Source: an uncultured Bacteroidales bacterium
GTDB lineage: Bacteria > Bacteroidota > Bacteroidia > Bacteroidales > UBA3663
Direction: 5' to 3'
Length of the DNA stretch: 32,335 nucleotides
Assembly: GCA_902776605.1 (NCBI GenBank)
Contig: CACYQQ010000018.1
Span: 1 to 32,335, forward strand
A program made the translations under genes and the position numbers. The notes under the pieces were generated by a model. That model saw only the letters and a list, made by a program, of their open reading frames with translations, was not told the DNA's origin and ran no database searches. Position 1 is the stretch's first letter. Every line of letters begins with the position of its first letter. This document shows, one piece after another, positions 6,790 through 30,795 of the stretch.

Positions 6790-7242
6790 AATGAAAGGAA
6801 ATTGAAAGTTGAAAATTGAAAATTGAAAAACCGCTCCTTACTATTAGTGCCAAAGGACCTGGTCAATGAAAAACGAAAAGTGAATTGAAAGTTGAAAATT
6901 GAAAAACCATGCTGGACGGGATCCATAACGTCGGAAGACGTTTCACCTCTTTAACCCCACATTCCTTATGTGGGGATGGGACGACAGCCCTCCCCCCTCA
7001 CCGCCTTACGTCGAAGACGTTTCACCTCTTTCGGGGATGGGACGATATCCTACTTATGCTTCCGTCTGCCTACCCCAGATGCGGCACTGACCTTCTCCCT
7101 TTTTCCTACCTTTAAAAGGGAGCAAAAAGGGAGAAGGTCTGTAAAAAGACAAGAACATTTCAACAGGAAGAAAAGGTGGTGGAGGAAAAATTAAAAATGA
7201 AAAGTGAATGGAGCAATTGAAAATTGAAAATTGAAAAAAACT
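6790..7242. repeat. Gene-free stretch with AT-rich and GC-rich short repeats
   Basis: There are three clusters of the simple repeat GAAA(A/G)TTGAAAATTGAAA (near 6800, 6885 and 7215). An imperfect pair of about 45-bp units, starting ACGTCGGAAGACGTTTCACC at 6928 and ACGTCGAAGACGTTTCACC at 7008, lies 80 bp apart. Each unit ends in GGGGATGGGACGA. The first contains a CCCCACAT/ATGTGGGG stem at 6955-6975. No convincing gene was found on either strand. Confidence 0.6.
7089..7139. repeat. Perfect 16-bp inverted repeat
   Basis: GACCTTCTCCCTTTTT (7089-7104) and AAAAAGGGAGAAGGTC (7124-7139) are exact reverse complements with a 19-base loop. The loop contains CCTACCTTTAAAAGGGAGC, itself partly palindromic. 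A related sequence (TTTTTCCTACCTTTTTGCTC followed by CTTTTAAAAGGGAG) occurs at 31021-31058. It could be a small transposon-like palindrome or a strong hairpin. Confidence 0.6.
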
Positions 7243-10235: not shown

Positions 10236-10771
10236 CTCCGTCAATTGAACTTAATTAGAACTTAATTTTTATTAGTTTTCCTAGGTGGAGACAAAAGAGT
10301 CTCATTTAAGGGAACTTAATGAAACTAAATTTTTGATTGAGCAAAAGGATATTCTCCGTCAATTAAACTTAATTAGAACTTAATTTTTATTAGTTTTCCT
10401 AGGTGGGGACAAAAGGAGGCTCATTTAAGGGAACTTAATGAAACTTAATACTTATTGAGCTAAAGGATATACTCCGTCAATTGAACTTAATTAGAACTTA
10501 ATTTTTTAAGTTTCTCCTGACGGGGGACAAAAGTGAGCTCATTCAAGGGTACTTAATGAAACTTAATACTTATTGAGCAAAAGGTTATTCTCCGTCAATT
10601 GAACTTAATTCCGTGAGTTGCGAGAGCCTTGCAACACAATTGGGAACTCAATTGAACTCAATTTTATTAGTTTTGCTGACGGGGGACAAAAGGAGGCTCA
10701 TTTAAGGGAATTTAATAGAACTTAATTTTTAATTTGGAGAGAGAGATACTCTTAATCAATTGAACTTAATA
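10236..10771 (+). repeat. Tandem array of 118-bp units (left arm of the cassette)
   Basis: Units start with CTCCGTCAATT(G/A)AACTTAATT at 10236, 10354, 10472 and 10590: exactly 118 bp apart three times. The fourth is longer (about 159 bp) because of extra sequence near 10611-10656, and a fragment follows at 10749. Each unit contains GGGGACAAAAG and GAGC(A/T)AAAGG landmarks. 118 is about twice the roughly 60-bp module of the right array, so the unit looks like a diverged dimer. No coding frame is conserved across units. Confidence 0.85.
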
Positions 10772-11429: not shown

Positions 11430-11923
11430 TGGAATCAAAATAAATTGAGTTTAATTAAGTTATATTGTTGGAGCTAAACCAACTGTCGGGACAAAAAAAA
11501 ATTGAGTTCCAATTAAGTTCAATTGTCGGAGTTAAACCAACTATCAGGACAAAATGAATTGAGTTCCAATTAAGTTCAATTGTCGGAATAAGACCAAACT
11601 TAGAACCAATTGTCGGAGCAAAATAAATTGAGTTTAATTAAGTTCTATTATTGGAGCTAAACCAACTGTCTGGACAGAAAAAATTAAGTTCTAATTGAGT
11701 TCAATTGTTGGAGTAAAACCAAACTTAGAACCAATGGTCGGACTAAATAAATTGAGTTTAATTAAGTTCTTTTATTGGAGCTAAACCAACTGTCGGGACA
11801 AAAAAATTAAGTTCTAATTGAGTTCAATTGTTGGAGTTTAAACCAACTATCGGGACAAAATGAATTGAGTTCAAATTAAGTTCAATTGTCGGAGTAAATA
11901 TATCGCCTCACCAATTGACGGAG
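11430..11923 (-). repeat. Array of about 60-bp units (right arm of the cassette)
   Basis: About eight imperfect units of 59-62 bp are built from AATTGAGTT(C)nAATTAAGTT, CAATTGTCGGAG and CTAAACCAACTGTCGGGAC. Anchors such as TAAATTGAGTTTAATTAAG occur at 11441, 11624 and 11748 (spacing 183 and 124, that is three and two units). Reverse-complemented, the units match the start of the 118-bp units of the left array, so the arrays face each other. No coding content. Confidence 0.8.
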
Positions 11924-28945: not shown

Positions 28946-29617
28946 TTATTTCTCCTCCGCCGACGCACCCTTTTTCTCGACGATGCAGAGCACATATTCC
29001 TCGTTGCAGTCGAACTTCACGCGCCAAGGAGCATCCCACCCCTGCACGCGCAACCAGAGAACCTTGATACTCCAGTCGATGTGCAGCACCGAAACCAACT
29101 GCTTCAAGTCGTAGTAGTCGTGCCCCAGCACTTTATAGATCGCCTCCTTGGCGCTCCAAGCCAAATGCAAGGCCAAAGCAAATGCATCACAAGGCAAAGG
29201 CCAAGGGCGAGTCAGAGCCGCCTGATTGGCCTCCATCTGTAGCACAACCACTTCGTCCTCCTTCAGGAACTGACTCACCACGCGCTGCACGCGATTGCCC
29301 AATCGCTCGATGTCGATTCCAACCGGAGAGGGCGACACGCACACGGCAGCAAATCCCTGCGTGTGACTGATGCTCAAAAAGGGACCATTGGCCAACGACG
29401 GTGCACCGTGCTCGTCATAGAGCACCTCTTGCTCCTCGCCATAGAAGAGTGCCTTCAAGGCACAACGCACAGCCAACACCTCCAACAGGCGTTTACTGCC
29501 TGGTTTGAGGTTCTTCACCTTGTCGGCGTACAACTCCGGTCGCGACAACTGGGCGCGGAGTTCCTCCTCGCTCTCGTTGATTCGCCAGATGATATAGTCG
29601 TTTTGCTCCATAGTCAT
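28946..29617 (-). CDS. 4'-phosphopantetheinyl transferase superfamily protein
   Basis: 223 aa from the ATG at 29617 (a second ATG at 29611 is equally possible). It transfers the phosphopantetheine arm of CoA to a Ser of carrier proteins. Motifs are those of the Sfp/EntD type: PFLSISHTQGFAAVCVS (P1 region), VGIDIERLGNRVQRV with the Mg-binding Asp, and LAWSAKEAIYKVLG with the WxxKE-Y-K signature. So the likely partners are fatty-acid or secondary-metabolite carrier proteins; which one cannot be read. It is a single gene with a good promoter at 29631-29661. The C-terminus ends in a Lys/Ala/Glu-rich tail. Confidence 0.9.
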   Translation of the reverse strand: MTMEQNDYIIWRINESEEELRAQLSRPELYADKVKNLKPGSKRLLEVLAVRCALKALFYGEEQEVLYDEHGAPSLANGPFLSISHTQGFAAVCVSPSPVGIDIERLGNRVQRVVSQFLKEDEVVVLQMEANQAALTRPWPLPCDAFALALHLAWSAKEAIYKVLGHDYYDLKQLVSVLHIDWSIKVLWLRVQGWDAPWRVKFDCNEEYVLCIVEKKGASAEEK

Positions 29618-29700: not shown

Positions 29701-29770
29701 GGTGGATAAACCTGTGCATAACCACCGAAACAGACAAAAACGCGCAGTTATCCACCACTGACGTGGATAA
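29701..29770. other. Cluster of four DnaA-box-like 9-mers
   Basis: TGTGCATAA at 29713-29721 is a perfect DnaA box (TGTGNATAA). GGTGGATAA (29701-29709), TTATCCACC (29748-29756) and CGTGGATAA (29762-29770) each differ from consensus at one outer position. Four boxes in 70 bp, in both orientations, next to AT-rich sequence, is far denser than expected by chance. It could be part of an origin or a DnaA-binding regulatory or titration site. Confidence 0.5.
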
Positions 29771-29783
29771 CTCCAAGGCACAG

Positions 29784-29913
29784 AAAAAAGGGAAGAGTTG
29801 AATGGCTCTTCCCCTTTTCTGCTTGCTAAAATAGGACAAGCTTCGGTGTTTTTCAAGAATAGATCTAAAGGTTTGCGTTATTTAAGGTATTGTGTTATGG
29901 TTATGTCTTTAAG
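29784..29913 (-). ncRNA. Candidate small RNA of about 130 nt
   Basis: A perfect promoter (29950-29920, minus strand) lies upstream, and an intrinsic terminator closes the unit: GGGGAAGAG/CTCTTCCC stem, then six T at 29789-29784. No open frame of useful length lies between. A GCTTG/CAAGC stem precedes the terminator. It ends over 160 bp before the next gene and that gene has its own promoter, so it is not simply a leader. I cannot assign it to a known RNA family (6S RNA is one thing to test). Confidence 0.5.
29789..29813 (-). terminator. Intrinsic terminator of the candidate small RNA
   Basis: GGGAAGAG (29790-29797) and CTCTTCCC (29806-29813) form an 8-bp stem. On the minus strand it is followed by TTTTTT. 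The plus strand shows CTTTTCTGC, so it could also work there. Confidence 0.75.
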
Positions 29914-29919
29914 GTACCG

Positions 29920-29950
29920 CAAAGATAGGGGCAATTTCTTACCAATCCAA
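29920..29950 (-). promoter_or_regulatory. Orphan promoter reading toward 29784
   Basis: Minus strand: TTG (29950-29948), exactly 20 bp, TATCTTTG (29927-29920), then CGG. It is an exact consensus promoter with no protein gene directly behind it. Confidence 0.75.
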
Positions 29951-30087
29951 AAATTTCTACATGTTCTACAACACAAAAAACGATTGCACAAGCAAAAAAA
30001 GTGCTTTTCCACATATTTATAAGCGATATTTGCATCAAAAAACGACCGATGACCGCAATGTTTTGCACATTATAGCGCAAAAAAGTG

Positions 30088-30795
30088 AATCACCGAATGG
30101 AACAAATGAAGACTAATGCACTTGCTCGCACGCGACTGCCTGTAAGGGGTATTAAACGAATTTCTGAACGAAGGAACGGAATCACACTCACAAAAATAAC
30201 CTCCTTTACACTCAATTAAACTCTGCGAGAAGATTTAAAATCACCGAATTCAACGAATGAAGACTAATACCCTCGCACGCACTCGACTGCCTGTAAGGGA
30301 TATTAAACGAATTTCTGAACGAAGGAACACACACTCTCACAAGAATAACCTCCTTTACACTCAATTAAACTCTGCGAGAAGATTAAATAATCACCGAATT
30401 CAACGAATGAAGACCAACATCCTTACAAGAACTCGACTGCCTGTAAGGGATATTAAACGAATTATTGAACGAATGAAGGGAATCACACTAACAAGAATAA
30501 CCTCCTTTACACTCAATTAAACTCTGCGAGAAGATTAAAAAATCACCGAATTCAACGAATGAAGACTAACATCCTTACAAGAACTCGACTGGCTGAAAGG
30601 GGTATTAAACGAATTACTGAACGAATGAAGGGACACACACTCACAAAAATAAACTCCTTTACACTCAATTAAACTCTGCGAGAGATTATATAACAAAGGA
30701 AAACAGAATGCGAATTACTGAACGAAGGAAGGGACACACTCTCACAAGAATAACCTCCTTTACACTCAATTAAACTCTGCGAGAGATTATAACAA
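30088..30795 (+). repeat. 150-bp tandem array, four units plus a partial one
   Basis: Units start AATCACCGAAT(G/T)(G/C)AAC(A/G)AATG at 30088, 30239, 30389 and 30541 (spacing 151, 150, 152). A fifth, truncated unit runs about 30690-30795. Each unit has a 5' part with CTGTAAGGG(G/A)TATTAAACG and a 3' part with AACCTCCTTTACACTCAATT and AAACTCTGCGAGA. In units 1, 3 and 4 an ATG (30106, 30407, 30559) opens a 37-codon frame starting MKTN and ending TLN-stop. In unit 2 (ATG 30257) a small indel shifts the end and lets the frame run into unit 3. Related single copy at 12452. From 30796 to 31008 there are only ATTCTCTAATTCTC-type words. Confidence 0.85.

Follow-up and report, generated by a model that had tools for sequence, protein, structure and literature searches.

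Does the orphan promoter seen in this Bacteroidales contig, followed by a terminator with no protein between them, drive a small RNA of its own, and what would such an RNA do? The window examined here is the whole stretch of 32,335 nucleotides, and the features that bear on the question all lie on its minus strand (Table 1). A TTG (29950-29948), a 20-bp spacer and the box TATCTTTG (29927-29920) make up the promoter, and a hairpin (29819-29784) runs into six T ending at 29784; the letters agree in both cases with what a sequence-only reading of this DNA had described. The same reading had found no protein in between, and the interval 29915-29784 indeed holds no ATG. It had placed the start at 29913, 2 nt away from the A29915 adopted here, which was set by analogy with FopS, a Bacteroidales small RNA discussed below whose model starts 4 nt past TTTG. 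The predicted RNA, 29915-29784, is about 132 nt long and free of AUG. Its computed fold has an energy of -24.9 kcal/mol, compared with -13.96 ± 2.85 kcal/mol for shuffled sequences (0 of 200 as good), and leaves nucleotides 1-74 unpaired, followed by a small hairpin and then the terminator.

Table 1 Predicted features of the small-RNA locus (positions in the window)
Feature	Position	Strand	Basis
E1 (TGTGCAATCGTTT), possible transcription-factor site	29978..29990	-	Upstream motif shared by copies
E2 (GTGTTGTAGAACAT), palindromic ATGTTN4AACAT	29961..29974	-	Upstream motif shared by copies
Promoter of Bacteroidales type, TTG + 20 bp + TATCTTTG	29920..29950	-	Sequence; kept in the family alignment
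Small RNA of ~132 nt without AUG	29784..29915	-	+1 from FopS analogy; ATG count; fold
Putative anti-FopS site 1, bulged, ACCUUAAA-GACAUA-ACCAU-AACAC	29892..29915	-	-19.2 kcal/mol with same-genome FopS, 1/100 shuffles as good
Middle partial anti-FopS motif, ACCUUAAAU	29880..29888	-	9-nt complement of FopS AUUUAAGGU; kept in the family alignment
Putative anti-FopS site 3, ACCUUUAGAUCUAUUCUUGAAAAACAC	29846..29872	-	-23.6 kcal/mol, 0/100 shuffles as good
Intrinsic terminator, hairpin + T run	29784..29819	-	Fold; hairpin then T in other aligned copies except L054

Generic tools said little about the locus. A promoter scan of the window, based on the E. coli sigma-70 consensus and not on the Bacteroidales type, did not return this promoter. 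A generic terminator scan listed the plus-strand version (29790-29813) and not the minus-strand terminator, and a tRNA scan gave none at the small-RNA site. The checks proposed by the sequence-only reading included a covariance search against Rfam, with 6S RNA among the families, and a look at conservation in relatives. Scanned over the whole window, the Rfam models gave nothing at the site at E ≤ 1, and a scan of the small region gave only weak matches, all under their cut-offs. Identity with 6S RNA, tmRNA, tRNA or another Rfam family was ruled out, as no model matched.

The gene that follows is on the same strand, with an ATG at 29617 and an open reading frame extending to 28946, and codes for a 4'-phosphopantetheinyl transferase (PF01648). 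As its start lies about 166 nt past the T run, the unit might be taken for a plain 5' leader or attenuator of this gene. We consider this explanation very unlikely. The terminator is strong, and copies of the promoter, 5' box and terminator were found to adjoin unrelated genes in either orientation, at several loci conserved across species, which is why the leader was rejected. Comparison between copies thus supports the view, already taken from the sequence, that the unit is an independent small RNA rather than the leader of the next gene. That it has paralogues and is complementary to FopS goes beyond the sequence-only reading. The downstream gene had also been credited with a promoter of its own. 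A box, CATCTTTG, lies at 29638-29631 and could be the -7 box of this gene; calling it a promoter is a reading by eye. Between the sRNA terminator and this gene (29701-29770), four DnaA-box-like 9-mers occur within 70 bp (TTATCCACC, TTATGCACA, TTATCCACC and TTATCCACG). Such matches number 15 in the whole window against 8.1 expected, and as 15 was reached in 6 of 100 shuffles it is the cluster, not the total, that stands out.

On sequence comparison, the window unit belongs to a family of paralogous predicted small-RNA genes. BLAST returned five further strong copies in its own genome, and R1, a model derived from the alignment of 34 copies and using sequence only, found seven copies there in total. 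The genus is Candidatus Liminaster, which a passage of PMC8957277 equates with GTDB UBA3663. Its genomes yielded 41 R1 matches at E < 1e-5, spread over 13 of 15 genomes with 1-8 per genome. This recurrence of promoter and 5' box makes the window unit more than a chance arrangement. No copy was detected by R1 in G002 and G013, in which FopS is present and which are 63% and 75% complete. Five further matches in the genus were weak (E 0.0018 to 0.0099), and the weak genus matches L181 and L182 failed as members in the pairing test described below, 16 and 88 of 200 shuffles being as good.

Beyond the genus, a sample of 295 genomes from the order was scored with stricter filters under which weak matches were lost; seven genomes matched, four being the own genome and others of its genus and three coming from one other family. 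In this second Bacteroidales family, single copies were found in four of the five genomes of the other genus concerned. A sample of 395 genomes from the class gave matches only in the own genome, apart from two weak ones (L208 and L209, E 4e-4 and 5e-4); these were rejected as members outside the two families, as 118 of 200 and 81 or 131 of 200 shuffles, respectively, paired as well. A 21-base pattern of the 5' box matched 24 stretches in the genome_contigs collection, the records being labelled Bacteroidales bacterium, Prevotellaceae bacterium or Candidatus Liminaster caballi (2 of 24), and many came from ruminants. A phage origin was also rejected, with 0 viral contigs carrying the 5'-box pattern; a site-3 pattern matched 8 viral contigs, and these look like FopS on the opposite strand. 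The gene neighbours of the 34 aligned copies were clustered by blastp, with one protein per cluster named by Pfam. Ten copies lie just downstream of miaA (IPP transferase, PF01715), five have a TPR gene as neighbour, three an HSP90 gene and two an MTHFR gene, and these shared clusters indicate that several loci are conserved across species. With promoter, terminator and conserved loci, the unit has, judged by sequence alone, the transcription unit of its own that is expected of an sRNA sponge.

Comparison of the copies establishes the family together with its promoter elements and terminators. In all 34 aligned copies the promoter box reads TATCTTTG or TACCTTTG and the 5' box reads ACCUUAAAGACAUAACCAUAACACAAUACCUUAAAUAA or a variant thereof. 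The middle is variable save for two conserved blocks, CCUUAAAUCUAA and GAAAAACA, which are split or altered in some copies, and the 3' end is a hairpin of varying sequence with T after it, L054 being the exception. Further upstream, the E1 motif TGYRCAAYCGDTT occurs with at least 12 of 13 matches in 26 of 32 copies, against 0.08% of mononucleotide-shuffled upstreams, and E2 with at least 13 of 14 matches in 27 of 32 copies, against 1.2%, both motifs having been defined on the same copies on which they were then scored. E2 was also present upstream of 3 of 52 FopS genes and visible at the three second-family loci inspected. The core of E1 presumably resembles operators of the LacI family. Where E1 precedes E2, the two start near -60 and -44; where E2 precedes E1, they start at -94 or -84 and at -60, -59 or -49. 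The offsets between these positions are close to 10 bp or its multiples, which fits factors on one face of the DNA, and we infer such binding at E1 and E2, through which the promoters would read signals.

Several repeats were seen elsewhere in the window. A 152-bp unit repeated in tandem about four times occupies 30088-30791, upstream of the sRNA promoter, and other tandem arrays lie at 10236-10610 and 11436-11898. A long near-perfect inverted repeat at 7085-7143 gave sub-threshold matches to microRNA models on both strands.

In the new RNA the conserved blocks are mostly reverse complements of the seed at the FopS 5' end. In B. thetaiotaomicron, FopS is described in PMC11697453 as having 14 copies, each with an unpaired 5' seed and a terminator, and as a post-transcriptional repressor of glycan transporters, SusC translation being repressed near start codons. 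FopS (RF04319) scored above cut-off in all 15 genomes of the genus, with 50 matches at E ≤ 0.001, and in the three second-family genomes examined. Over 53 FopS genes (the 50 of the genus and three from G016, one having a masked first base) the 5' end reads GUGUUUUUCAUGGUAU[A/U]AG and continues with a U-rich stretch and AAGGU. On phage contig L200 (3820-3922), a FopS copy begins a few bases past the 3' end of a tRNA-Arg gene, which suggests release by tRNA processing.

The window RNA is not FopS itself, since it matches on the wrong strand. The FopS model gave no match at E ≤ 10 on the sense strand, and 16.9 bits at 29846-29899 on the opposite strand (cut-off 56). Among 20 further loci it gave one match, which was antisense and sub-threshold at 33 bits. 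The FopS 5' seed GUGUUUUUCAUGGUAUUAGAUUUAAGGU is absent from the window RNA, where its complement is found instead. Both are multicopy paralogous sRNAs with a Bacteroidales promoter, an unpaired 5' part and a terminator. The new RNAs differ in bearing the FopS seed as its reverse complement, in having about double the length and in giving no sense-strand model match, and genuine FopS genes are found alongside them within single genomes.

A sponge is likewise expected to show extended complementarity to an sRNA seed from its own genome, and all 34 aligned copies show it to FopS. Specifically, same-genome FopS 5' ends pair with these copies at -22.4 to -37.4 kcal/mol (mean z -6.3), against -12.5 to -15.4 kcal/mol for shuffles. 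In the dinucleotide-shuffle test, 32 of 34 copies beat all 100 shuffles and the other two had 1 of 100 as good, although homology between the copies means that these are not 34 independent tests. The main site of the window copy has mismatches, and its energy is among the weaker values of the family. The 5' box alone forms a second, bulged FopS site in 34 of 34 copies (-15.7 to -19.5, mean z -2.7), pairing in blocks around ACCUUAAA, ACCAU and AACAC with 0 to 6 of 100 shuffles as good. Cofolding of the full-length RNAs predicted net binding in every one of the 34 cases (-17 to -37 kcal/mol, mean -25.9), and both arms still pair in those copies that carry a small inserted hairpin between them. 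In L006 the sequence of site 1 has changed and its pairing with FopS UUUCAUGGU is kept; by eye, the divergent copies behave similarly. Substitutions in site 3 showed no clear pair-keeping bias, A>G accounting for 35 of 63 changes of A and the pair-breaking T>C for 8 of 18.

The pairing was well above background and extended to copies outside the alignment. The FopS 5' end averages -28.9 over the 34 RNAs, against -8.9 (best -15.6) over 76 control 31-mers downstream of TTG...TANNTTTG in 400 kb of G003. When both strands of our window and of 24 database loci were scanned (21,538 sequence windows), family copies took all of the top 19 places for complementarity to FopS, and a threshold of -22 was passed by 24 of the 25 marked copies and by 6 other sites. 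Five divergent copies of the genus paired at -26.5 to -32.2 (0/200 shuffles each), two genus copies dropped from the alignment at -34.8 each (0/200) and three of four second-family copies at -23.2 to -26.6 (0/200), all tested with one FopS 5' end and not with same-genome ones. The divergent copies had been found with a model in which most of site 3 is included. The remaining second-family copy, L199, tested with one FopS 5' end as well, gave -21.8 (1/200), its best site being the counterpart of the middle motif. Complementarity to FopS is thus established, at the level of sequence and computed energy, as a property of the family.

In both families the RNA is best conserved in its 5' box, letters unpaired to FopS included, and the box is conserved beyond what FopS pairing needs. 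This would suit a different account, in which the RNA acts in trans on other partners, the box being an mRNA seed or a protein-binding site and the pairing with FopS being secondary or reciprocal, with FopS also controlling the RNA. We regard this as possible but doubtful. The account is at odds with the conserved columns between box and terminator, which are the FopS-complementary arms, and with the own genome, where outside the family copies the box found only matches of at most 17 nt (E ≤ 10).

In some copies site 3 matches the FopS 5' end almost exactly when reverse-complemented and may therefore have arisen by inversion, and L054, which has no terminator, runs towards a downstream open reading frame. 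A decaying, functionless remnant could look like this, whether it derived from a FopS copy in inverted orientation or from a leader that had spread from a FopS-regulated mRNA. Such decay is improbable here, given that the promoter elements, the two arms and the terminators persist where other parts have diverged, that the arms survive around inserted hairpins and that loci are conserved across species.

Overall, comparative and energetic evidence favours the reading, to which we assign a probability of roughly 77%, that the window unit belongs to a paralogous family of small RNAs serving as sponges (target mimics) for FopS. FopS RNAs repress through their 5' end (GUGUUUUUCAUGGUAUUAGAUUUAAGGU), which pairs with translation start regions. 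The sponge, if transcribed as predicted, would begin with ACCUUAAA, leave about 74 nt unpaired and offer FopS at least two sites, the bulged 5' site and the longer pre-terminator site, mimicking a start region of the form ACCUUAAAUCUAAUACC-AUG-AAAAACAC whose AUG is altered in many copies. Once made, it would form a duplex with FopS in the cell and occupy or destabilise it, so that repression of FopS target mRNAs would be relieved. AUG was not clearly avoided, 16 of 34 copies having no ATG in the first 90 nt where shuffles would lead one to expect 35%. Among 257 open reading frame starts in 400 kb of G003, the best FopS pairing was -20.9, none being as strong as that of the sponges. The ten best start-region targets of this set were no better than with shuffled seeds (-18.47 against -17.88 ± 1.06), and the mean pairing was somewhat better (-12.96 against -11.13 ± 0.70).

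Upstream of FopS itself, TGCAANNNNTTGCA occurs with at least 13 of 14 matches in 13 of 52 genes (for example L139, L148, L156 and L160). In several FopS promoters a site of this type (TGCAAACGTTTGCA) overlaps the -33 box, and it is possibly a repressor site.

An antagonist of FopS repression is already on record in B. thetaiotaomicron, namely the RRM protein RbpB (PMC11697453). The sponge would resemble RbpB in this role and differ from it in being RNA rather than protein. The RRM_1 domain (PF00076) was detected in 0 of 15 genomes of UBA3663, the control Bacteroides being positive, yet FopS is present in 15 of 15. In the second family, four of five genomes have an RRM protein alongside the sponge, and elsewhere the domain is patchy, occurring in 9 of the other 16 genomes and in 13 of 21 in all. 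The sponge therefore occurs both with and without an RRM protein, and a tie between the sponge and RRM loss everywhere is ruled out by the second family. The coincidence of higher sponge copy number with RRM absence, one event in one genus, is suggestive. As RbpB antagonises FopS and no RRM was found in the genus, the sponges may stand in for it there. Tentatively, and with the odds against it, expanded sponges in Candidatus Liminaster could have replaced a lost RbpB as the FopS antagonist, giving an RNA-only on/off control switched through E1 and E2.

If the sponge reading is correct, a dedicated multicopy sponge family would act as counter-regulator of the glycan-transporter repressor FopS in a rumen gut bacterium. 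Among the papers listed in our search of the literature on Bacteroides and Bacteroidota, mostly outside subscription papers, none described an sRNA sponge in this phylum, and the single mention of 'sponge' in PMC7366714 is a general remark. Sponges of sibling sRNAs do exist in Proteobacteria, as PMC9732341 and PMC12559287 describe. QrrX, a sponge of Qrr1-4 in the gammaproteobacterium Vibrio cholerae, is one RNA and was found by Hfq RIL-seq (PMC9732341), whereas the putative anti-FopS sponge is itself multicopy and belongs to Bacteroidota. Similarly, CrfA of Caulobacter crescentus is one sRNA, induced by carbon starvation and found among Hfq-associated RNA pairs, that acts as a sponge for the four conserved sibling sRNAs SisA-D (PMC12559287); the anti-FopS family, in contrast, has 1-8 copies per genome, with promoters of their own and shared upstream elements.
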